From positions 1 to 27,745 of the IMG/VR virus record IMGVR_UViG_3300037558_002783: a DNA stretch of 27,745 nt; one strand, written 5' to 3'. The notes under the pieces were generated by a model, which worked only from the letters and a program-made list of their open reading frames with translations, ran no database searches and was not told where the DNA came from. This DNA is from a virus. Numbering within the stretch: the first letter of the stretch is position 1; every line of letters begins with the position of its first letter. Shown one piece after another: positions 2,527-14,379 of the stretch. Both the position numbers and the translations under genes were made by a program.

Positions 2527-3038
2527 CACACCTCCCTGGTCGCAGAAAGCACAACCATGTCGACAGACATACCTCTTTCTTTTATCCATGCACCAGATGG
2601 AATTACGCCACTATACACAAAGCCCGACTTCTTTGCAACATTTATAGCCCTGATATTTATTTTTGGTATCATTCCGACTATAACGTCAAAGCAATATGTT
2701 CCGTTTTCATATTTCTGCGAAAGGAGCGTCGTCAAAACATGCTCGCCAAAATATCGTGATACGCCCCAATACTTTTTCATAACACAAAAATGGCCGCGAC
2801 ACATCCGGCCCTCAAGGTTTGTCAGCCACACAATCGCGCCCAAATCGCCACCACAGAACACGACAAACGGGTGCACATGCCCGGCAGACATCATCTCCAC
2901 GAAATCCGCTCCGGACTCGACGGATCCGTCACAAAAAACAGCCCCCGCCGTGGACTCGGCAAGCAGGCGCTCCCACACATCCAGCCAGAACCCTGCTGGC
3001 CGATCATGTGCGGCGACCATGACAAGTTCACCAATCAT
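2526..3038 (-). CDS. GNAT-fold (DUF2824-like) phage protein
   Basis: 170 residues from the ATG at 3038, which overlaps the upstream stop as ATGA; upstream in-frame codons lie inside the previous gene. The C-terminal two thirds reads as a GNAT acetyltransferase fold: a beta strand with LGAIVWLTN, a GHFCV strand, a helix after YWG, then VGMIPKINIRAINVAKKSGFVYSGV, matching the usual P..N..A...a.k.GF strand-helix end of GNAT domains. A canonical acetyl-CoA loop (Q/RxxGxG/A) is not obvious, so catalysis is uncertain. Phage proteins of this type (DUF2824) sit beside ejection genes in P22-like phages, as I recall, and this gene immediately precedes such a cluster. Its 3' half (about 2560-2790) is clearly richer in A+T than its neighbours, which suggests separate origin. 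Confidence 0.65.
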   Translation of the reverse strand: MIGELVMVAAHDRPAGFWLDVWERLLAESTAGAVFCDGSVESGADFVEMMSAGHVHPFVVFCGGDLGAIVWLTNLEGRMCRGHFCVMKKYWGVSRYFGEHVLTTLLSQKYENGTYCFDVIVGMIPKINIRAINVAKKSGFVYSGVIPSGAWIKERGMSVDMVVLSATREV

Positions 3039-3649
3039 GATGGCCAGACCATGGGAGGGAGCATGGCCACAAACTCGTCGATCGTGGGAATCGACATCCT
3101 GCCGGCCACCACCTCCGTGTAGATCTCCTCGCACCGCTGCCAGACATCGTCACGCCACTGTACCGCGGCCCGGCCGTCCGGACCGTACATGGGATGCGAG
3201 CTCGTGGCGTAGGTGCAGCACGACAACAACGCGAGTTTGCCGTCCGGATCACCAAACACCCGTCGGGCAGACACCACGCTGTCCATGTGCGCCTGTGCGG
3301 CATTGACGAACACCCCGCGCAGATCCTGAACCGGAAAGTCACCCAGGCTGTCTTCGTGCGGTTTCGGGAAACGACGCTTCACCGCCAGGCACGCCTGGTA
3401 ATACGCACCCAATTCGGTCCACCCCCTGCCCGCCAGGATCTGGTCCCCGGAATTGATCTTGGCCACGGCGTCCAGGTAGTCCTCCTTCGGAGGGTAGGCC
3501 CAGCCGCGCAGCAGGGCATAATTCTCCAGGCGCCAATCCTCCACGGTCACGTCGCCGCCACGTCCAGCCAGATACGCGGAGATAACCGCATCCAGCCCGG
3601 CATCGTCCGCACAAACAGCCTCGGCCACATCTGTAATGTATAATATCAT
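3035..3649 (-). CDS. Tail-fibre-associated protein, unknown function
   Basis: 204 residues; the start overlaps the stop of the 1024-residue fibre gene by ATGA and its own stop overlaps the next gene in the same way. Residues 45-95 contain YALLRGWAYPPKEDYLDAV and ...YYQACLAVKRRFPKP, which resemble the YPP..D.LDA ... AVKARYPKP pattern common in small proteins encoded next to phage tail fibres. The C-terminal half contains a Cys pair and a W...V..G..P.P..DE stretch with similar spacing to the N-terminal motif. No signal peptide or membrane segment. It may help fibre assembly or cap the fibre; the family name is not certain. Confidence 0.55.
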   Translation of the reverse strand: MILYITDVAEAVCADDAGLDAVISAYLAGRGGDVTVEDWRLENYALLRGWAYPPKEDYLDAVAKINSGDQILAGRGWTELGAYYQACLAVKRRFPKPHEDSLGDFPVQDLRGVFVNAAQAHMDSVVSARRVFGDPDGKLALLSCCTYATSSHPMYGPDGRAAVQWRDDVWQRCEEIYTEVVAGRMSIPTIDEFVAMLPPMVWPS

Positions 3650-6600
3650 TCACCCACCGCCATGTAGTTCAACGTCCCGCCGGCCAGCTCCGTAAACGTC
3701 GTTTGATTCGTGGACACGGACTCTCCATGCACGTACGCATTACTGATCACAGAATCCCCACTGAGGGGAGAAACCGACACGTCGCCTGGATGACTGTACC
3801 CAATCTTGAGCGAATACGTGTGCACACCAGGAGTCAGGCCAGACACTGTCTTTGTGAACGCGCTGTCAACCGGCGCGTCGTCACCCCACGAACCGGCATA
3901 ATACTCGACTCCGTCGATCACGAGCCACAAATCAACATAAAAATCTTCGTACAAATACACATAGTAGTACTCTTCTGTGTCTCCGTACTCGCGCCTGTCC
4001 TTTAATCCGAACGCGCCGCCAATGGTACCTGAAACCGTTATAGACTCCGTGTTGTCAACAGTTTGCAGAGACGACGTTGTCCCATACGTCCACCCGTTAT
4101 ATGTCCCACTGTTCGTCACACTGACGTCGAGAGTGATCGGGCTCCCAACGACACCGTCCGTCAATCGCAGAAAGGCCTTCGGCGTAAACTGATACGTCAA
4201 GCCAGACGCAACGATATTTTCCGCCTGGCAAACAAGACTCTGATTCGCCGTCGGATAGTCCTTGCTGTACGCCATAATGTCCGCCGGGGAGACAATGATC
4301 TTCGGAGGCTGCTTCCACACGCCAGGCAGAGTCACAACCTGGTTGTTTGCCACGCCAAGACCAAATTCGACACGCTTCACACTGTTGTATAGAACATGAT
4401 CCTCCTGCACGCTGTCCCAATACATAAAGCGCAGATCCCCATCCTTCAACTCGGCATAGTCGACACCACTGTAATTCGGCTGCCCGAGCACGGTCCCGTT
4501 ATCCGGCGCAACCAGCATCCGGTCGCCAACGGAATCCAGCACCAGATTGTTCATGCCCACCGTCAGCCGCCCTCCCTCGTTCAGGATGATGTCCGACGTG
4601 GCCGCGATATGCTGGCCGGACACCTGGTCGGCGCCGATCTTATCCGCCGTGACAGAACCGGCGTTCAGGTGCCGCGTCAGAATCGTGCCGTTGACCACCA
4701 GGTCGCCGTCAATGCCCACGCCGTTCGCACCCGTCTCGCCCAGGGGCCCGACCACGAAGGGCACCTGCGGATTCTCGCCGGGCGTCACAACCATGAACTT
4801 GTCCGACAGGACGATAAACTCCGACGTCGCCCCGGTGCCATGCAGCCCGACCCCGGACACGCGGCCGTTCACGTCCAGCTTGACGAACCATTCGGCCTCC
4901 AGGCCGTCAAGCGTCGACGCGTGCGTCTGGATCGAGGCGGTATGTCCGTCAACAGTCGTCTGCATCGTGGAAATGTCGCTCGCCAGGGCAGAATCTGCGT
5001 TTGTCCGCGCCGTCTGCTCCGTCACGATCGCCGCCGCGTTGTCTCCAACAGAAGACTGCAGCGCCGAAATATCGGCAGCCAGGGCCGAATCGGCACTGGC
5101 CCTGGCCGCCTGCTCAGTAACGATCGCAGACTCGTTACCGGACACGCCCGCCTGCAATACGAGAATATCGCTCGCCAGGGCAGAATCTGCGTTGGTCCGC
5201 GCCGTCTGCTCCGTCACGATCGCCGCCGCGTTGCCTCCAACGGACGACTGCAGTGCGGTAATATCTAAAGCCAATGCGGCATCAGCGTCTGCCCGCGCCG
5301 TCTGCTCCGCCACGATCGCAGCATCAAGGGTGCTGTAATGCCCGGATACCGTCGCGGACAGCGCGCTGATCGACGATGACAACGCGGAGTCACCGCTGAC
5401 TTGCGCCTGCTTGTTGTCGACCAGGGTTGATTCGATGGACTTGTCGGTCGGATTACCCTGGGCATCTTTGACATTATCAAGCCTTGCAGTAAGGCCCGAC
5501 ACGTCCGTCGCCAGCGCAGAATCCGCGTTGACCCGGGCAGTTTCCTCGGCCGTAATAGCCGCGTACAGATCAGAAAAATCGCCGCTGCCGGCGGCAACAA
5601 TCAGGTCGATCCTGTTCGACAACACCTGGTCAGCCGTCGCCCTCGTGTTCCGTTCCGAATAGATGAGCCCACTCGAAACTTGAGAAATATCCGAGCCGGT
5701 ATAGTTCCCCCGAATCTGAACAGCCAGGGCGTTCCTGGAATTCGCCTCCGCCGAATCCGCGTCGGCCCGCGCCGTCGCCTCCGACGACACCGCCGCTATC
5801 CGAGCAGCCTCTTCGTCCTCGAGCGCCGCGCTCACTAGGGAGATCTGCGACGCCAGAGATTCATCTGAACCCTGCCTGGTTGACGCTTCGCTTGTAATCG
5901 CGGCCTGACGCGCCGCAGCCTCTGCCAGAAGCGCGTCGGCCCGCGCAGACGCCTCTGCAGCAATATCCGCGGCCCGGGCAGACGCCTCGGCGGCCAACGC
6001 GGCAATTCGCGCTGCCGTCTCGACCGCCAGACGCTCCGCAACGCTGCCCGGCATCGTACCCGGCCCGTCGATCAGATCTATCCGGGAAACCAAATCCTGA
6101 TACAGATGGGACTCCGTCACGCGACCGGCCAGCAACTCCAGAACCTCGTCCACGGTCGTGTCGATCTCTGCCGGCACGATCAGGCCACCCTGGCCTTGCG
6201 GAGGACACCACGGAGAAACGCCACCACTCCAGTCAACGGCACGGATCCAGAACGTATAGTTGATGCGCATGGATATGCCGTGCATGGTCCACTCGGCCAT
6301 TGGCTTGGTCGCGATACCCACGCGCCACGCGTCATCCAGCAACGTGGACTCCTCGGAACACCAAACCTCCACCGCCGAATACTGCGTCTCGACATTCTCC
6401 CAGGTCAGCTTGATCCCGAATATCTGATGCTCGTACTGCAGACCGCGCGGCGCCTTGAGGATACGCGTTCCACCGGATCCAGGGACAACATCACGCGTCT
6501 GGTCGACAGTTGTCGGCATATAAGCGGACAGGAGCCCGCGCTCCACTTCGAACAGCCGGACAGCCCTGTCCGACGCGTCGCCCGTCTTGCCGGACAGGCG

Positions 6601-6720
6601 TTCGACCTGCTCGCGCATGGCCCCCAGCGACGACAACGCTTCGACTCCCAGCGACGCCGGTATCGGCGGCAAACTCTTCTCACGCGCCAGGCGCTTACGA
6701 ACGGCCAGATCAGACGCCAC
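3646..6720 (-). CDS. Long tail fibre / host-specificity protein with FN3-like domain and coiled-coil repeats
   Basis: 1024 residues from a GTG at 6720 with GAGGAGCTGG upstream; the open frame extends 53 codons further, but that part overlaps the preceding gene and reads Arg-rich and non-native. Residues 92-183 look like a fibronectin type III domain (TWENVETQYSAVEVW ... YTFWIRAVDWSGGVSPW). Residues 225-605 are a heptad-rich coiled coil built of Ala/Arg/Asp/Ser repeats (TARADADSA-type), including four 32-residue units. Residues 606-700 (WFVKLDVNGRVSGVGLHG, then GDLVVNGTILTRHLNAGS) resemble the C-terminal region of lambda J-like host-specificity proteins. The last 320 residues are beta-rich with many aromatic residues and probably contact the receptor. 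A trimeric fibre is likely. The FN3 plus J-like C-terminal arrangement in a podovirus-like module is notable. Confidence 0.75.
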   Translation of the reverse strand: MASDLAVRKRLAREKSLPPIPASLGVEALSSLGAMREQVERLSGKTGDASDRAVRLFEVERGLLSAYMPTTVDQTRDVVPGSGGTRILKAPRGLQYEHQIFGIKLTWENVETQYSAVEVWCSEESTLLDDAWRVGIATKPMAEWTMHGISMRINYTFWIRAVDWSGGVSPWCPPQGQGGLIVPAEIDTTVDEVLELLAGRVTESHLYQDLVSRIDLIDGPGTMPGSVAERLAVETAARIAALAAEASARAADIAAEASARADALLAEAAARQAAITSEASTRQGSDESLASQISLVSAALEDEEAARIAAVSSEATARADADSAEANSRNALAVQIRGNYTGSDISQVSSGLIYSERNTRATADQVLSNRIDLIVAAGSGDFSDLYAAITAEETARVNADSALATDVSGLTARLDNVKDAQGNPTDKSIESTLVDNKQAQVSGDSALSSSISALSATVSGHYSTLDAAIVAEQTARADADAALALDITALQSSVGGNAAAIVTEQTARTNADSALASDILVLQAGVSGNESAIVTEQAARASADSALAADISALQSSVGDNAAAIVTEQTARTNADSALASDISTMQTTVDGHTASIQTHASTLDGLEAEWFVKLDVNGRVSGVGLHGTGATSEFIVLSDKFMVVTPGENPQVPFVVGPLGETGANGVGIDGDLVVNGTILTRHLNAGSVTADKIGADQVSGQHIAATSDIILNEGGRLTVGMNNLVLDSVGDRMLVAPDNGTVLGQPNYSGVDYAELKDGDLRFMYWDSVQEDHVLYNSVKRVEFGLGVANNQVVTLPGVWKQPPKIIVSPADIMAYSKDYPTANQSLVCQAENIVASGLTYQFTPKAFLRLTDGVVGSPITLDVSVTNSGTYNGWTYGTTSSLQTVDNTESITVSGTIGGAFGLKDRREYGDTEEYYYVYLYEDFYVDLWLVIDGVEYYAGSWGDDAPVDSAFTKTVSGLTPGVHTYSLKIGYSHPGDVSVSPLSGDSVISNAYVHGESVSTNQTTFTELAGGTLNYMAVGE
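4951..5343 (-). repeat. Tandem 96-bp (32-residue) coiled-coil repeats inside the fibre gene
   Basis: Four consecutive units of 32 residues cover about residues 460-590 of the fibre. Each follows the scheme SVxGNAAAIVTEQTAR, then xxADSALASDI, then xxLQ. Two copies are almost identical as DNA: 4976-5049 and 5168-5241 are 74 bp each, differ at two positions by eye, and lie exactly 192 bp (two units) apart. This points to recent unit duplication or gene conversion and to possible length variation of the fibre shaft. Confidence 0.85.
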
Positions 6721-8296
6721 TTTCCAGCTCCTCGATGGATGTTGATACACGCACCTCAAACACGTCAGCAGACCCCTCAAGCTCAAGCGTCCAGGCGTTC
6801 TCCGCCTTGCAGTCCATCTCCAGTCGCGCCGGGTCCGTGCTCGAAACAGACCTGGTGCACTTGAGAACGTCGTGCGCATAGAGGCGAAGCGTCACCGCCG
6901 ACGGAAAGTCGGACTCGATGCGCACAACGGCCGGCAGGACCAGGCGCGACATGAAAAACTCACTACTGCGCCACCTGTACGTCAACCGCCCAGCACCCCC
7001 CTCAAATGCCAGCACCTCGCCGTCGACATTGAGGAACATGGCATCCAGCTCCGCATCCACAACCACGGCATGCACAGGCCCTGGAATTTCGATTTCCCGA
7101 ATGTCGCCCGCCGAAAAATCATAAACCACGCCCCGGGACGTGCCCTTGAAAAACGCAAAATACTGATCTTCGAAACACGCGCCCAGGACGAGGCTCGGTC
7201 CCAGATCCCTCCATTGCTGCGTCGTATAGAGCCCCCTCGTCACCACCCTGGGCCCGTCCGACGCGACGAGGCACAGCCCGTCTGGGCTCGCGTACATCAC
7301 ACCGTATGGCGTCGACACGATGGAGGCCTTGCCCACACATCCCTGGTAAAACTCCAGGGGCGTCTGCGAAAGGGACTCCGGCGTCGAACCGACAAGCAGC
7401 ACGGGACGAACCGTGGTCAACACCACGACGCCACCGTCCAGCACCCCCAGGCCGACAATTTGATCCTGCACAGACAGGCGGTAATCCGCCGGGTACGCAT
7501 ACGGAACAAACAACTCCGACGGCAACACCTCGTTGTCGCGATGCAGCACGTACATGCCGTTCTTCGTCAAAACCATGCCTCGCGCGTCGTCTTCCGGCAT
7601 GGTCCAACCCTCCGTGGCCAGCGTCACCGTGGACAGGTCAGCGTCGCCCACCTCATCCAGGAACGAGGACACGCCGGCCGCGAGCTCGTGCAGGAAAAAC
7701 CATTCTCCGCCGGACGACCGGTAGATTCGCACCGCGTCAACCTGCAGGCCATCCAGCACGGGCGCCTCGAACCCCGTCAGGGTCACGCCCTGACCATCCA
7801 TGACGTCAACCACACCAGTCGTTACGGACGGCGCACTTTCCTGCTCGCCGCCCATACCCAGGTTGCACACGTAGGTGAAGCAATACGCCGACGACCTGGC
7901 AATATCTGCCCCGTCCTCCGGGACGCCCGTCAGCTCGATGGACAGAGGAAGCGCCGGCGCGGGAACCCCGAGACGTTGCAAACTCCCGCCCATAGCCGCC
8001 GTGCCCTGCTTGGGATACCCGTGACCAGTCACCAGATAATGCCCGCCGCTATCCACGATCGTCGACTTGAGCACGTCAACGAGCGCGGACCACGACATCC
8101 AGCCCAGATCCCCATGGCGATAGATGGTCCGAGAAAGGCCTACGGACGCCTGCGACTCGCCAAAACCGCGCAACGACTCCAGGATCCCGGACTCCAGCCG
8201 GCAGTTCAGCGCGACTTGCGCGTCCTGCGGAGAGAGCAACCTCCGAAACGTCCTCGGAGTCATGCCCTTGAATGTAGGAATGGTTACAGTCGACAT
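6710..8296 (-). CDS. Beta-rich virion structural protein, possible tail nozzle/tube protein
   Basis: 528 residues starting MSTVTIPTFKGMTPR from an ATG with AGGTAGGA upstream; the stop overlaps the start of the fibre gene by about 11 bases. The N-terminal part (FKGMTPRTFRRLLSPQDAQVALNCRLESGILESLRG) resembles the start of podophage nozzle or tail proteins, in which a genome-length set of beta strands then forms a propeller. Repeated short strands (VDGLQVDAVRIYRSSGGEW, GMVLTKNGMYVLHR, VVVLTTVRPVLLVG, YGVMYASPDGLCLV, DQYFAFFKGT) are spaced as in a beta-propeller. There is no catalytic motif, signal peptide or membrane segment. It lies between the small Ig-like protein and the fibre, consistent with a distal tail part. 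The role is inferred from fold-like pattern and position. Confidence 0.6.
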   Translation of the reverse strand: MSTVTIPTFKGMTPRTFRRLLSPQDAQVALNCRLESGILESLRGFGESQASVGLSRTIYRHGDLGWMSWSALVDVLKSTIVDSGGHYLVTGHGYPKQGTAAMGGSLQRLGVPAPALPLSIELTGVPEDGADIARSSAYCFTYVCNLGMGGEQESAPSVTTGVVDVMDGQGVTLTGFEAPVLDGLQVDAVRIYRSSGGEWFFLHELAAGVSSFLDEVGDADLSTVTLATEGWTMPEDDARGMVLTKNGMYVLHRDNEVLPSELFVPYAYPADYRLSVQDQIVGLGVLDGGVVVLTTVRPVLLVGSTPESLSQTPLEFYQGCVGKASIVSTPYGVMYASPDGLCLVASDGPRVVTRGLYTTQQWRDLGPSLVLGACFEDQYFAFFKGTSRGVVYDFSAGDIREIEIPGPVHAVVVDAELDAMFLNVDGEVLAFEGGAGRLTYRWRSSEFFMSRLVLPAVVRIESDFPSAVTLRLYAHDVLKCTRSVSSTDPARLEMDCKAENAWTLELEGSADVFEVRVSTSIEELESGV

Positions 8297-8307
8297 AGAT
8301 CTAGATC

Positions 8308-8622
8308 CTACCTGAAGTGGTCGAATATTTCGAAGTCGAAAACCGTCTCGCCACGCCCTTTGTAGCCATCAACTGTCTCGATGTAGGGCTGTATCTTGTA
8401 TTTACCGGGCTGCAACGAGGAGCCAGGAGGAACTATATGCCTGATGATGTTCGGCGGAACCGGGGACGCTTCCCATTCTTCTTCGGCCGATGCTCCTGGG
8501 CGCATTACAAACATTTTCTGACCGGACAGAACGCCAACAGGAACATCTTCATCCTCGATGTCCACCAAAGATATGTCAATACGAAGACCTTCGACGCCCT
8601 TGTATACCTTGACCTGGTCCAT
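8308..8622 (-). CDS. Small Ig-like tail/baseplate protein
   Basis: 104 residues from the ATG at 8622 with GAGGGGTG upstream; an in-frame GTG two codons earlier is possible. The sequence is all-beta: an N-terminal strand pair (YKGVEGLRIDISLVDIED), VGVLSGQKMFVMRPGAS in the middle, then IIRHIVPPGSSLQPGKYKIQ and a final TVDGYKGRGETVFDFEIF strand. Such small Ig-like proteins, with a Q/PGxYxxQPYVE-like strand near the end, are frequent between tail genes of many phages. It sits between the M14 tail protein and the nozzle-like protein and may decorate or join them. No family could be named with certainty. Confidence 0.6.
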   Translation of the reverse strand: MDQVKVYKGVEGLRIDISLVDIEDEDVPVGVLSGQKMFVMRPGASAEEEWEASPVPPNIIRHIVPPGSSLQPGKYKIQPYIETVDGYKGRGETVFDFEIFDHFR

Positions 8623-8634
8623 GAACACCCCTCG

Positions 8635-11097
8635 TTACTGCGTATCAACGTCCACACCGATTGACGACCGAACAATGACTGACCGTGCAATTCTTGCTCG
8701 AAATTCAATCGCCTCAACCATGCGACTCGGAAACACAACCCTCGGGCTCGGCGCAAAATCACCGTTGAACAACGCCGGTGTCCCTACTTCCCATCCCCCC
8801 ATGGAGACATGATGAGCGACAAGGGCGTGCACCTGGCCCAACTCCGGAACAGAAACCTGAAACGGAGCCATCTGAACATCCAATCCCGACAAAACGTCCA
8901 CGCCTTCCGACGTTACGAGATACGGCATGGAAACATCCGGCGCGCCAAGCGACACATCTGCGCCGCCCAGAACGTGGATCTGCCCCAGGGCCGGCACGGT
9001 GACATCAGGAACCCCCATGACCACATCCAGCCCCACCAAGGCCGCGGCCTCGGACGGAAGCCTGAGTTCGGCCAAGGGAGTGTCCGCCAGCGCCCTGGCA
9101 TAGACCTCGCCAACCCCCGAAACGTCGGCTACGCCACCGGGAAACGCGCTCGACTCGTAAGTTTCCGGGATGTAGCAGTGGTGGGGCCCATAGGTGCGGG
9201 CAAATCCGGCGGCGATGGTCGTCGCCGTGATGTTGTTCATGTCGTCGAATGAGGAATACGTCTTGACCCGTGCGTCCCACTCGGCCAGATAATCGGCGTT
9301 CGGATCGTTGGAATTGTAATAGTAAAAGGCGGTCGCGGTCCCCCACGTCCCATGAAAATCGGCAAAGAAAGCCGCATTGTTGTCACCAACATCCGCCGCA
9401 ATCATTGCCCGTAGAAACTGGGTAGACTGGAAAATCGAGGCCGAATTGTCCTCGGGCCAGTCCCGGTTCGGGTCGAGCGTGTAGTTTCCGGGTTGCCGCT
9501 GGCCCCGATAGTGTCCCATGACCCGACCCATCGGGTTGACACAGGGATAAATCAGAAAGCGGAAGTTCCGCAGGAGGGCGGTCGCCTGTGCCGAGCCGCC
9601 GAAGAGGAACCGTGTGAACCCCTCCATGGCCCAGGAGCCCACATGCTCGCCCGCGTGCGTGCCGCTGACGATGACCGCGATGCGTTTGGCCGAGCCGTCA
9701 AGGGGCTGGAGCGCGTCATCCCAGACTCCGAATGCATGCATCTTCTGCCCGGGCACCGTCTGGCCCAGCTCGTCAACCTGGGGCGAAAGCAAGGTCGGGA
9801 ATTCAAAGCCAGGAGCAGACGGCAGGGCGTGCACGAGATCCGCGTCCAGAGCCTGGAGCTCCCCGATCAGCCACGGCGCGCGGGAGACGGGCCAAGCGGG
9901 CTGGTAGGCCACATAGACCGTATCGCCCGTGAATGGCGCGGAGTGCTGGAAATCCCAAGAGCTCCCATTGTTCGTCGGCGCCTGGTCGAACCGCAGCCAC
10001 GTCACGCCGTCGTAGCTGTACCAGGGCCGCCAGGAAGTCCGGAACGTGTCCACGCAGTCGACAGGATTCGTGATCCGGAACAAAGGGCGCTTGCCGGCCG
10101 CGGAGGTCAGACGGAAAAGGAACTGCCGCCAGCCGGTATAGACGACCCGGACCTCGACGTTGACGGTCGGGCTCGTCGTTCCGGGGTCCGTGACGCTCGA
10201 GTGCGTCGGATGTGCGTTATGGGAATCCCCGGCGGCGACAAGAACGAGATTTTGGGCCGCAACCTCGACCAGGGCCGGCGTCGATACTTCAGGCGCCCCC
10301 ATGGTCACATCCTGGGCCGTCAGCTCGTCCGTGCCCCCCGTAACGATCAGTGCGGGGGACGACACTTCCGGGGCCCCCATGGTCACGTCCTGGGCCGTCA
10401 GATCATGCGTGGCAGATGTCGACTCACCAAGGGCTGTATTCGGCGGGAGCTCGCCGGCCACAAACGCACTCCGGGCAATCGGGACGATATTGTGCGGGCT
10501 GTAGTCCTGGCCGTTGGCCCAGCACAGGACCAGGCCGTCCGGAACGCTCAATGGGCCGTCTGCCACCGCCGTGGCAACTTCGGCATCGGAAAGGACCCTG
10601 CTCCAGATTGCGAGATATGCGTGGCTCCCAAGGAGGGCGCGAGCTGCCCCGGGGCGGTTGAACAGCCAGAGATCGAAGCCGGTGCCGTCCAGGTACGGGC
10701 TACTGCCCGCAGATGCCTCCGGGGAGGCCTCGCGCACCCCGTCCTTATAGATCTTCCCGGATTCGTTGACCGCCGTCACGCCGTCCCAGGAGACAGCCAG
10801 GTTGACCCACTCGCCGAGCGCCACACTTCCGGACGCCCCTCGAAAGCTCGGAACCAACACGCTTGCGGCCGTAGGGGTCACGAACTGCGCGTTGCTATTT
10901 GATGAGGAAATCTGAAACCGGGGGCCGCCACTTGATGCGGAGTCCCCTTTAATACAGATTTGCCCGGGATTTTCGACGCCAGTCGGTTTTCCGTAGTACA
11001 TGTACGTGCGGGCAACCAGGCCGTTGATCGCGGCCGGCTGCCCGAGGTTCACGTATCCAGCGCCATCAATGCTCTCGGATTGGACGATGGTCGCCAC
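8635..11097 (-). CDS. Tail protein with LamG-like domain, short repeats and M14 zinc carboxypeptidase
   Basis: 820 residues from a GTG at 11097 with AAGGGAG upstream. Residues 1-195 form a LamG/concanavalin-like domain (GEWVNLAVSWDG, IYKDGV, then a GxAYLAIWSRVLSDAEV end motif). Repeats follow at 231-276. Residues 310-405 (WRPWYSYDGVTWLRF, DTVYVAYQPAWPV) resemble the N-terminal beta domain that precedes the catalytic domain of cytosolic (CCP/AGBL-type) M14 carboxypeptidases. Residues 450-680 hold the catalytic domain: zinc ligands H481xxE484 (GTHAGEH) and H582 (ADFHGTWG), substrate-binding N521/R525 and N544-R545 (DPNRDW), and a candidate catalytic Glu at 645 or 648. More repeats cover 687-776. 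All metal ligands are present, so it is probably active on a peptide or poly-amino-acid at the host surface. Confidence 0.8.
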   Translation of the reverse strand: MATIVQSESIDGAGYVNLGQPAAINGLVARTYMYYGKPTGVENPGQICIKGDSASSGGPRFQISSSNSNAQFVTPTAASVLVPSFRGASGSVALGEWVNLAVSWDGVTAVNESGKIYKDGVREASPEASAGSSPYLDGTGFDLWLFNRPGAARALLGSHAYLAIWSRVLSDAEVATAVADGPLSVPDGLVLCWANGQDYSPHNIVPIARSAFVAGELPPNTALGESTSATHDLTAQDVTMGAPEVSSPALIVTGGTDELTAQDVTMGAPEVSTPALVEVAAQNLVLVAAGDSHNAHPTHSSVTDPGTTSPTVNVEVRVVYTGWRQFLFRLTSAAGKRPLFRITNPVDCVDTFRTSWRPWYSYDGVTWLRFDQAPTNNGSSWDFQHSAPFTGDTVYVAYQPAWPVSRAPWLIGELQALDADLVHALPSAPGFEFPTLLSPQVDELGQTVPGQKMHAFGVWDDALQPLDGSAKRIAVIVSGTHAGEHVGSWAMEGFTRFLFGGSAQATALLRNFRFLIYPCVNPMGRVMGHYRGQRQPGNYTLDPNRDWPEDNSASIFQSTQFLRAMIAADVGDNNAAFFADFHGTWGTATAFYYYNSNDPNADYLAEWDARVKTYSSFDDMNNITATTIAAGFARTYGPHHCYIPETYESSAFPGGVADVSGVGEVYARALADTPLAELRLPSEAAALVGLDVVMGVPDVTVPALGQIHVLGGADVSLGAPDVSMPYLVTSEGVDVLSGLDVQMAPFQVSVPELGQVHALVAHHVSMGGWEVGTPALFNGDFAPSPRVVFPSRMVEAIEFRARIARSVIVRSSIGVDVDTQ
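8770..9039 (-). repeat. C-terminal set of about 22-residue repeats in the M14 tail protein
   Basis: Residues 687-776 of the protein contain four units of a pattern L-x-x-x-D-V-x-M-G-x-P-x-V-x-x-P-x-L, for example LVGLDVVMGVPDVTVPAL and LGGADVSLGAPDVSMPYL. The DNA copies have diverged. The same motif occurs twice before the catalytic domain, so the enzyme is bracketed by the same type of repeat. Confidence 0.75.
10270..10407 (-). repeat. N-terminal pair of LTAQDVTMGAPEV repeats in the M14 tail protein
   Basis: Residues 231-276 hold two near-identical units, LTAQDVTMGAPEVSSPAL and LTAQDVTMGAPEVSTPAL. The DNA shows a 29-bp direct repeat at 10295-10323 and 10373-10401 with one difference, 78 bp apart. 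The closeness of the copies implies a recent duplication. Confidence 0.8.
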
Positions 11098-11109
11098 AGA
11101 CTACTCCCT

Positions 11110-11484
11110 TTACACCGCGTCAGGCAGGCGGACGTTGATGGCCGCAAGAGTAAACGCATTGCCGGTTGTCACAACCTGCGGACTTGCCATTTCCTGAACC
11201 ACCGCAAGTCGGGAGTTCGCAACATCCAGCAGGGCGAAGTGGGTGGCGGAGCCGTCAGCGGAAACAGAGCCGTCAGAGATCGCCTCCACGACAACCTTGC
11301 GGCCACTCGGAGACGCATCCTGGGGGGCAGACACGGTCGGGCTGGATTTTGTCCCGAGCTTGTATGTCGAATTCGCCTCCGCAAATGTCGCAGGCTTCTG
11401 GGAGCAGATCACCAGCGTGTCTACTCCGGACTGAATTCCGGCCAGGGCAAGATCAACGTAGTAGTCATTTACAAAAGCAGACAT
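11110..11484 (-). CDS. Small virion-associated protein, unknown function
   Basis: 124 residues starting MSAFVNDYYVDLALAGIQSG from the ATG at 11484, with GGAGGTTG eight bases upstream; an in-frame TTG two codons earlier is less likely. The N-terminus is helical, followed by a Ser/Thr-rich, strand-rich region and the end motif NAFTLAAINVRLPDAV. Small proteins with a similar DxxLDxALxxI start are common in phage tail regions, where they precede a lectin-like or fibre protein, as here. No catalytic, membrane or signal features. Function unknown. Confidence 0.55.
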   Translation of the reverse strand: MSAFVNDYYVDLALAGIQSGVDTLVICSQKPATFAEANSTYKLGTKSSPTVSAPQDASPSGRKVVVEAISDGSVSADGSATHFALLDVANSRLAVVQEMASPQVVTTGNAFTLAAINVRLPDAV

Positions 11485-11753: not shown

Positions 11754-12253
11754 TCCGTCTCCAGCGAGCACCGCCACACGTTCGGAATTTCGTTCCCTTC
11801 CTCGTCCTGCGTCGGCTGATAGATGTCAGGACGCCAAGCCAAGACCTGGGCCAAGGTAAAGCCCAGAAACTCCGGAACGAGCACGCCAGCCCTGCGGTCA
11901 GCGATCTCAAACGGCGTCAGGCCCTCGGCAAAGTCGGCCATGAGCAGGGCCTGCACGCACGGCGGTACAAGGGCCAGTGCCGCTTGCGGGTCGGTCATCA
12001 GCGCGGCCATCAGGGGCTGGCGGTCAAGGTCGGCGTCGAGCAGGCTGAAATCACACATTTCCACATTCCTGCCCTGTGTGTCGGGCAGATCGTCCTTGCA
12101 CAGCGTGTAGTGCATCAGGGCACGTTCAACGCCGTTGTCATCAAAGCGTCCGCAGGCTACGGCATGATACACTTCGATGCCGCGAAAGATGCGGGGGCTG
12201 GCAGGATCTGCGCTGTAGTAGCCGCCGAAGAAGTTGCGTTTGAGTTCTGGCAT
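11750..12253 (-). CDS. Tail-region protein of unknown function
   Basis: 167 residues; the ATG at 12253 overlaps the stop of the carbohydrate-binding tail protein (TAATG), with CGGGGGTGC upstream. It is acidic and helical, beginning MPELKRNFFGGYYS, with Cys residues at about positions 34, 52, 67 and 99. A central segment PQAALALVPPCVQALLMADFAEGLTP is hydrophobic but not long or uninterrupted enough to be a membrane span. Small proteins directly behind receptor-binding proteins often act as assembly chaperones or capsid-side partners; that role is only a positional guess here. Confidence 0.5.
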   Translation of the reverse strand: MPELKRNFFGGYYSADPASPRIFRGIEVYHAVACGRFDDNGVERALMHYTLCKDDLPDTQGRNVEMCDFSLLDADLDRQPLMAALMTDPQAALALVPPCVQALLMADFAEGLTPFEIADRRAGVLVPEFLGFTLAQVLAWRPDIYQPTQDEEGNEIPNVWRCSLETE

Positions 12254-14379
12254 TACAGCACCCCCGCCTGTTTGAAGTAGCGTTCGATGGTAGCCTCATC
12301 CACTTCGGGTTCATCCCAGACTTGGATGCCTGCGATGTGGAGGGGGATATGATGATTGTCATAGGCCAAACGTAAATAAGTTAACGGATTAAATGATCTA
12401 TCAAATGCGGTCCAATCGCTCCACGTAAACTCAGAGGACACTCCAACACGCTTATAACCAACACGAAAACTCGTCCCAGCAGTATTAACCTGTACCGCCT
12501 TAATGTGCCTTTCCCCACGATCCCAAGAAGACACGCTGACTACAGAAACATTTGTCCCGTCGTATGACCTGGAACAAGAAAAGGTAGGCGTAGTTGTTTC
12601 AACTCGCCAATGTAGCACCCCAGTGGTGGTGTTAGTATGCGACAGGATATTATAAGGGTTCACAAACACAGGCAAATCCCCACTCCCCACGCCCATCGTC
12701 ACCAGCGCGGCGACGGTGCATTTGGCGGGGAGGAGCTTTTGGATAGAGACGTTGTCTAAGGTAATGTCTGTGACGCCTACGCGCTTAAATGAAAGCGTCG
12801 TCGAATCAGTTGTATATTCAACAACATGCCGCCCAACCGAAGACGGCCATGTAAAAGCCCCGGAGGCACTGGATATGCCGCCAGAGGAGTTTGCAACAAC
12901 ATCATATGCCACTAAATAGCGGCCCCCATTTATCAACGTTGTCACGGACGAACGCAACGTCACCGCCGACAAGGCCCCTGATGGGCTATATATGCGGATA
13001 GCACCATCACCAGCTGTCGACGCACCCTCTGCGTTCCAGACAGCGGGGTCGTTACACGGCACATCTGGATTTAACTCCACCCCATCCGTCTTCCCGCGCA
13101 GGCACTCGATGATCTTCTGCTTCTCGGTGTTGATGCGGGGGACGAGGCGCTGGATGGAGATGTTGTCTACCTTTATCTTACTTCCTGCGGTTATCCCGCC
13201 TATTTGGATGGTAAAAAACAAATCAACACTTGTCAGTGATACATCAACCGTTTTTCTTGACAGTACTATATCGGTGTATCCAGTATTATGATATTCGCCA
13301 CCGACAACACTGGTGCCAATTTTTATAGATGCGTTAAAGGCGTCTATATTTGCGACATCAAATGATACACGAACCCTATCACCTACAGAAACACCAGCTA
13401 TTTTCTGCCTTGTATATGTCGTATCGGAGGCCCTTGTTACAACGAGCGCACCATCAATAACCTCTTGTGTGCCCGTGTTAAGCTCCCATCCCGTCATATC
13501 GCTATCAAACCCCCCATTCGTCACCAGCTCCACCCCATCCGTCACATACTCCACAGGATCAAACGAGAACGCCATCCCATTGCCCCCGCTCGTGCCAGCG
13601 GCAGAGGCGACGGTTGTGCCGGGAGGGACGTAGGGCATGGGGACGGAAGTGGCGGTGAGAATAGTCGAATTCTTTTTAACACGCAAACTACCTGCACCTA
13701 ACGTCCAAGTAGTCGCTGGATACGCATACAGATAGCATGTCGTTGTTATTGGTACAGCGGAAGTCATCTTAATAACGGTGTCTTCAGTCGTAGTGAGGCC
13801 AAAAAGCCTTCCAATATTTGAATTATATCCAGTCACCTCTCCAGGGCCGCTAATAATAGATAGAACAACCTCAACAAAAGAAGTGCCATCAAAGATACCA
13901 AAGTCATGAAAGTTCACGTTGCCTGTGTCGCCCCTACGGAGCGTCATGATAGCTGTAACTATTGAATTCGGGGCACTAAAAGTCTGATAGCAACCAGCAG
14001 TTCCCGTTTCGTCGGGCTTTGAAAATTGCTTATAGTTTAATTCGTCGATAACAGTAACATTAGAATGTATGATTGATGGAAAGTCTAAACCGAGCAGCAA
14101 ATTCGTATACCCAGGCCCACACCACAAACCCTTGCCGTCATGCCACGCAGGCACAGTGCCCACGCTATTTCCTTCGGAATCGTACTGGTCACCCACGTAG
14201 GACCATTCCGGGTCGGGGCCGACTGCGGATTTACGAGCGCCAACGAGCGACGGACGGACGGGCCAGAGCAGGGCGAGGGCTTTGGGAAAAGATTTTCCAG
14301 AACGCCAACCAACAAGATCCTGGACGTCGACAACCGGGTTCAGAACCGGGCTACACACGACCGGATGCACGACGCTCAT
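12253..14379 (-). CDS. Modular tail/receptor-binding protein with carbohydrate-binding-like domains
   Basis: 708 residues from an ATG overlapping the upstream stop (ATGA). After a 100-residue head, three jelly-roll-like blocks can be read: about 105-255, ending in TSVPMPYVPPG, a typical end of phage carbohydrate-binding-like modules; 282-412, starting ELVTNGGFDSDMTGWEL and ending KVDNISIQRL (CBM_4_9-like); and 436-550, ending TLDNVSIQKL. Residues 553-708 look like a LamG-type lectin (VGYKRVGVSSEFTWSDW, HIAGIQVWDEPEVDEATIERYF). It probably binds host surface glycans; no hydrolase residues stand out. The DNA is patchy: domain cores are much richer in A+T than the neighbouring genes, while linkers between domains are G+C-rich, pointing to module exchange. 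Confidence 0.7.
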   Translation of the reverse strand: MSVVHPVVCSPVLNPVVDVQDLVGWRSGKSFPKALALLWPVRPSLVGARKSAVGPDPEWSYVGDQYDSEGNSVGTVPAWHDGKGLWCGPGYTNLLLGLDFPSIIHSNVTVIDELNYKQFSKPDETGTAGCYQTFSAPNSIVTAIMTLRRGDTGNVNFHDFGIFDGTSFVEVVLSIISGPGEVTGYNSNIGRLFGLTTTEDTVIKMTSAVPITTTCYLYAYPATTWTLGAGSLRVKKNSTILTATSVPMPYVPPGTTVASAAGTSGGNGMAFSFDPVEYVTDGVELVTNGGFDSDMTGWELNTGTQEVIDGALVVTRASDTTYTRQKIAGVSVGDRVRVSFDVANIDAFNASIKIGTSVVGGEYHNTGYTDIVLSRKTVDVSLTSVDLFFTIQIGGITAGSKIKVDNISIQRLVPRINTEKQKIIECLRGKTDGVELNPDVPCNDPAVWNAEGASTAGDGAIRIYSPSGALSAVTLRSSVTTLINGGRYLVAYDVVANSSGGISSASGAFTWPSSVGRHVVEYTTDSTTLSFKRVGVTDITLDNVSIQKLLPAKCTVAALVTMGVGSGDLPVFVNPYNILSHTNTTTGVLHWRVETTTPTFSCSRSYDGTNVSVVSVSSWDRGERHIKAVQVNTAGTSFRVGYKRVGVSSEFTWSDWTAFDRSFNPLTYLRLAYDNHHIPLHIAGIQVWDEPEVDEATIERYFKQAGVL

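Follow-up and report, generated by a model that had tools for sequence, protein, structure and literature searches.

Known CCP-type and phage carboxypeptidases

Carboxypeptidases of the CCP type take single residues off free C-termini, and, to our knowledge, the characterised enzymes of phage tails nearly all cut sugars, with the few peptide cutters among them acting on peptidoglycan or peptide capsules. The bacterial M14 CCPs compared here (4b6z from B. cenocepacia, 3k2k from B. mallei, 3l2n from Shewanella, 4a37 from P. aeruginosa, and WP_114889470 from Sulfitobacter) are stand-alone proteins of ~370-400 aa, in which an N-terminal beta domain is combined with the M14 domain. Three N-terminal motifs and an HPGE motif define this CCP subfamily, which is termed M14D (PMC3940198). 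Lys330 in the S1' pocket of the B. cenocepacia enzyme (BcCCP) suggests acidic substrates, and the substrates tried on the Burkholderia and Pseudomonas CCPs were hardly cleaved or not cleaved at all (PMC3940198).

Several phage-related zinc peptidases have also been described. Bacillus phage Moonbeam encodes gp85 (AIW03483, annotated as "carboxypeptidase M14 domain"; M14 Pfam match, E=1.7e-19) in its tail module, directly behind the tail spike gene. The zinc carboxypeptidase of Clostridium phage phi24R (phiCP24R, G9J3I7) was reported as previously unseen in viruses (PMC9234517), and a "zinc carboxypeptidase" in the tape measure of T5 is mentioned in PMC11445458. The phage-derived poly-gamma-glutamate hydrolases PghP and PghL are zinc peptidases with a carboxypeptidase-like zinc site (ligands His40/Glu45) but form a separate family (MEROPS M86) of soluble proteins of ~23 kDa with HxxxxE spacing and no CCP beta domain.

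Domain organization of the window protein

The window, i.e., the whole stretch of 27,745 nucleotides that was analysed (a 27.7-kb viral contig), contains an 820-aa open reading frame with a GTG start and an AGGGAG ribosome-binding-like sequence ahead of it (Table 1). From the N- to the C-terminus, the encoded protein consists of a LamG domain, short repeats, a CCP-type beta domain, an M14 zinc-carboxypeptidase domain, and further repeats, so that repeats of the LxxxDVxMGxPxVSxPAL type flank the enzyme part on both sides. The match to Peptidase_M14_N (PF18027, the CCP N-terminal domain; E=1.8e-5) exceeds the gathering cut-off, and the corresponding region, which is nine-stranded in CCPs, is strand-rich in the fold model. 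Conserved alignment of the M14 domain continues beyond E645 to about residue 672. At the level of sequence, the Pfam matches for M14, the CCP N-terminal domain, and Laminin_G_3 are far beyond chance.

Table 1. Features of the window related to the M14 gene and its neighbourhood
Feature	Position	Strand	Basis or remark
LamG / M14 carboxypeptidase virion-module protein, 820 aa	8635..11097	(-)	ORF, Pfam, ribosome-binding-like sequence
Laminin_G_3 / ConA-like domain, residues 13-175	10573..11061	(-)	Pfam PF13385, E=1.1e-11
Two short repeats TAQDVTMGAPEVSxPAL, residues 231-278, linker ahead of enzyme	10264..10407	(-)	sequence
CCP-type N-terminal beta domain, residues 326-398 (whole ~284-420)	9904..10122	(-)	Pfam PF18027 and fold model
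Peptidase_M14 profile match, residues 441-636	9190..9777	(-)	Pfam PF00246, E=1.2e-14; PDB profile matches
H481, predicted zinc ligand	9655..9657	(-)	invariant; aligns with His of the HPGE motif in bacterial CCPs
E484, predicted zinc ligand	9646..9648	(-)	in all relatives; one residue later in the HAAGE clade
R531, equivalent of CPA Arg127 / BcCCP Arg226	9505..9507	(-)	invariant; alignment; role from PMC3940198
N544-R545, equivalent of CPA Asn144-Arg145 / BcCCP Asn235-Arg236	9463..9468	(-)	invariant; PMC3940198
H582, predicted zinc ligand	9352..9354	(-)	invariant
E645, predicted catalytic Glu, equivalent of CPA Glu270 / BcCCP Glu344	9163..9165	(-)	invariant; aligns with TIE of bacterial CCPs
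C-terminal repeats, same type as linker repeats, residues 684-776	8770..9048	(-)	sequence
Small conserved protein (124 aa) encoded immediately upstream of the M14 gene	11110..11484	(-)	homologues precede annotated tailspike/tail-fibre genes
Virion structural protein ("internal virion protein"), downstream neighbour	6710..8296	(-)	phrog_511, E=2.5e-101
Tail fibre / J-like protein, downstream neighbour	3646..6879	(-)	phrog_2589 / phrog_31

Homologues were found only in uncultured viral contigs. Together with the window protein they make up a family of eight diverged members, three of which are related to it at 74% (L002), 61% (L004), and 39% (L003), while a second group (L006, L009, L014, and L015) falls to 21-27%. 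The same N-terminal LamG domain is also present in L003 and in all four members of the second group. A profile built from the eight domains ranked CCPs first in a search of the PDB (4b6z, 2.9e-19; 3k2k, 1.6e-18; CCP5, 1.6e-14; 3l2n, 8.9e-12; 4a37, 4.9e-11), and hhalign to the Sulfitobacter CCP gave E=1.3e-12; by sequence and by fold, CCPs of bacteria and CCP5 of mammals are the best matches. Although AlphaFold2 gave a domain model of middling quality (pLDDT 62, pTM 0.63), these CCPs were again its neighbours in Foldseek (E=1e-16 to 4b6z, TM ~0.5); the zinc geometry is not readable from this model because the active-site loops have pLDDT <50. Agreement with the three N-terminal CCP motifs is partial, with DSHN in the window versus DAGN in the HAAGE clade (see below) for motif I, F(D,E)xGx(L,I); WRQFLF for motif II, W(F,Y)(Y,N)(F,Y); and PAWPVSR, which resembles PPYPLAR of the Sulfitobacter CCP, for motif III, P(F,Y)(S,T). 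Phylogenetically, the phage proteins group together, with support, apart from the sampled bacterial CCPs, and the branch of the Persicobacter protein described below is long.

A sequence-only reading of this DNA had proposed a complete M14 carboxypeptidase preceded by a CCP-like beta domain and a LamG-like domain, and Pfam, the profile search, and the fold comparison all agree with it. We therefore regard a complete CCP-like M14 enzyme domain as well supported by sequence and model comparison. The window protein shares with the bacterial CCPs the arrangement of beta domain and M14 domain as well as the zinc ligands, the Arg, the Asn-Arg pair, and the Glu, whereas those enzymes lack LamG and repeats, lie outside phage virion modules, and have HPGE in place of HAGE. 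In Moonbeam gp85, no CCP N-terminal or LamG domain was detected, and its profile match to the window family is weak; the phi24R enzyme, compared by fold match alone, is the best viral fold match (E=1.4e-4), but the match is poor (TM 0.2-0.3, 12% identity). Another comparable protein is WP_338398832 of Persicobacter, which likewise carries a CCP-type M14 domain with HAGE inside a large multidomain protein but is bacterial, has DUF4955 as its partner domain, and has no phage context. A tail-carried M14 enzyme, which had been presented as a departure from the usual tail enzymes, is less novel than was supposed given Moonbeam gp85 beside the tail spike and the phi24R enzyme. Phage carboxypeptidases are already known; what is new is a CCP-type enzyme that is fused to a LamG/fibre-like protein and mobile between phages, and none of the annotated phages searched has it.

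Conservation of the catalytic residues

Residue roles were assigned by alignment with the Burkholderia and other CCPs, the roles themselves being those given in PMC3940198. The alignment contains an HxxE plus His zinc site, the equivalents of Arg127 and Asn144-Arg145, and the catalytic Glu, as in M14 enzymes. H481, R531, N544, R545, H582, and E645 are invariant columns in all eight family members (window included), and all seven catalytic positions are kept though overall identity drops to 21-27%. The predicted zinc ligands H481, E484, and H582 had been correctly named from the sequence, since they align with the CCP ligands and are conserved, and the "late Glu" mentioned there corresponds to E645. 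The assignment of N521 and R525 as substrate residues was wrong: the position of R525 varies in relatives (R/S/Y/W/L), N521 is merely part of an NP motif preceding it, and the substrate-binding set is R531, in a GHYR motif aligned with GNLR of the Burkholderia CCP, and N544-R545. The DPNRDW landmark is indeed present, and N544-R545 is the Asn-Arg pair within it.

The motif around the first two zinc ligands reads HAGE in the window, L002, and L004, HPGE in L003, and HAAGE in the sister clade of L006, L009, L014, and L015 (e.g., the M14 domain at L014:6001-7230), which thus has HxxxE instead of HxxE with the other catalytic positions kept. Considering that the spacing of these two ligands is variable within the fold, as in PghP/PghL, M14 domains of the HAAGE group may still bind metal. 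Membership of the family in M86 was considered and rejected, as the HxxxxE plus His site is found neither in the window nor in the sister clade. L014 and L015 are under purifying selection (dN 0.095, dS 0.48), and dS is saturated for the window protein and its relatives.

It is possible that the M14 fold has been kept as a receptor-binding module without catalysis, since pseudopeptidases are known and the sister clade has altered its zinc-ligand spacing. However, the preservation of the seven catalytic positions in every relative despite such low identity, as well as the purifying selection in L014/L015, speaks against a non-catalytic role, which we consider quite unlikely.

Distribution and genomic context

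When the whole protein, the M14 domain, and the LamG domain were used as tblastn queries against annotated phages (50,697 records), no homologue was found, and the HAAGE-clade domain and two bacterial CCPs had no match in the same set. Two pattern-based scans of GTDB genome contigs revealed no homologue, no additional members came from viral contigs when these were scanned with L004, with L003, and with the catalytic core, and an NCBIfam search gave no match. The head protein of the window is closest to those of Pseudomonas phage Rollin (45%) and Pseudoalteromonas phage vB_Pun_Y3 (42%), and a local search of the fetched stretches of these two phages detected no copy of the M14 gene.

Besides the M14 gene, the window holds genes for terminase, portal, major head protein, and further structural proteins, an internal virion protein, a J-like fibre, and a fibre-like protein of 708 aa. 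As listed from its ATG, the J-like fibre gene has a 170-base overlap with the previous gene, and its initial ~60 residues look misplaced; the true start is probably near 6710. The 708-aa protein (12253-14379 (-)) has no Pfam or PHROG match, and G+C of 0.51 in its gene versus ~0.60 in the surroundings suggests that this gene was recently acquired.

The small gene directly upstream of the M14 gene has homologues in L002, Roseobacter phage CRP-6, and Octadecabacter virus DB2, and the gene that follows the homologue is annotated as tail fibre in CRP-6 and as tailspike in DB2 (the DB2 protein in this slot has a weak beta-helix match). Since it precedes fibre or tailspike genes in unrelated phages, this small gene may be a possible marker of an adsorption slot, which favours an adsorption protein in the window. 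By its neighbours and the small upstream gene, the window M14 gene lies in a tail-fibre slot, but its position is not uniform across relatives: it is flanked by tape measure and minor tail protein in L004 and by head genes and tape measure in L009, and it adjoins portal or head genes in L006, L014, and L002, lying between head genes in L006 and between portal and head maturation protease in L014. In L009, LamG and M14 are on two adjoining reading frames (8001-9176 and 9176-11308), so that the M14 portion might act as a polypeptide of its own. In L014, a gene located upstream of the M14 gene at ~2990-3530 (+) encodes a protein with a signal-peptide-like start, KCSKFLAGLTLAIVALATPFMPQVRAQ, which is odd for a head-gene module.

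In the window and in its relatives, the M14 gene is always located within virion-structure modules of otherwise unrelated phages, and therefore the protein is likely to be virion-associated. Portal families differ among the contigs that carry it, showing that the cassette is exchanged between unrelated phages, and its spread over several unrelated phage backbones suggests that the gene is useful to phages. The description "phage tail protein" of the sequence-only reading thus holds insofar as the gene belongs to a virion module and, in the window, to a fibre-type slot; "tail" is derived from gene position, and in some relatives the gene stands among head genes. For the window, the tail is a better guess than the head.

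Possible function and substrate

Our best explanation, which we regard as about evenly balanced, is that the protein is a virion adsorption protein from the fibre/spike slot with a working CCP-type M14 carboxypeptidase that trims peptide ends on the host surface. The domains, the complete set of conserved active-site residues, the position in virion modules, and the exchange between unrelated phages were observed directly, and we infer that the enzyme is active, that it is part of the virion, that it sits on the tail and not on the head, and that its substrate is on the host surface. The LamG domain would be a binding or attachment module and the repeats would be spacers. Water would be activated by zinc bound to H481, E484, and H582, E645 serving as the general base, and a peptide would be gripped at its free C-terminus by R531 and N544-R545. 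During adsorption, single residues would in this way be removed from the C-terminal end of peptides or proteins that are accessible on the surface of the host or in its matrix. If true, the presence of such an enzyme in a fibre-type protein would suggest that the end of a surface protein or peptide of the cell is targeted at entry, and it would offer a possible function for bacterial CCP-type enzymes. A more specific version, in which the mobile cassette supplies unrelated phages with a CCP-type enzyme for editing one particular surface protein of the host at its C-terminus during adsorption, with a sister clade that uses HxxxE, is unlikely; if true, it would be the peptide-cleaving counterpart of glycan-cleaving tailspikes.

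The sequence-only reading had pointed out that known CCP-type enzymes trim glutamates from protein tails, and it had named peptidoglycan stem peptides, a poly-gamma-glutamate capsule, or a surface protein as likely substrates; unlike the enzyme assignment, these substrate proposals are not supported. Counted back from the catalytic Glu, the position of Lys330 is occupied in the window protein by A630 or, if one gap is placed differently, by G631, so that glutamate trimming is not supported; the basic S1' residue expected of a deglutamylase is absent. Some bacterial CCPs also have no lysine at this position, where they have N or T. The proposed term "depolymerase" is a poor fit for an exopeptidase of this kind, and the removal of single residues from free C-termini by CCP-type enzymes argues for peptide-end editing rather than polymer depolymerisation as the probable mode of action.

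Among other explanations, the protein might be a peptidoglycan enzyme of the virion whose M14 domain trims the stem peptide, like cellular M14-type D,L-carboxypeptidases, and aids DNA entry. Peptidoglycan-acting M14 members do exist (H. pylori Csd4), and the place of the L004 gene between tape measure and minor tail protein would be a possible site for a tail-tip enzyme. However, the nearest proteins are CCPs, with no proximity to peptidoglycan M14 enzymes in any search, and the LamG domain and repeats resemble surface fibres. Moreover, trimming of a single stem-peptide residue does not by itself open the wall, and peptidoglycan would not be the first structure that a fibre meets on the outside of a Gram-negative cell. 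We consider this role unlikely. Less probable still than the non-catalytic binding module discussed above is a head fibre, neck, or morphogenesis protein, in which the enzyme would decorate the capsid or trim virion proteins at assembly: the positions of the L014 and L006 genes agree with it, but fibre or tail genes adjoin the M14 gene in the window and in L004, and surface fibres are where LamG domains and repeats are more usual. Depolymerisation of poly-gamma-glutamate or a similar peptide capsule, which had been listed among the likely substrates and for which the phage enzymes PghP/PghL, zinc peptidases of related fold, give a precedent, is very improbable, as these hydrolases differ in family and ligand spacing, the window protein has CCP-type exopeptidase features and no basic residue at the S1' position tied to Glu preference, and the closest backbone relatives are phages of Gram-negatives. 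A Persicobacter plasmid protein (L041:1-2220) in which DUF4955 is joined to a CCP-type M14 domain is possibly useful for substrate guesses.
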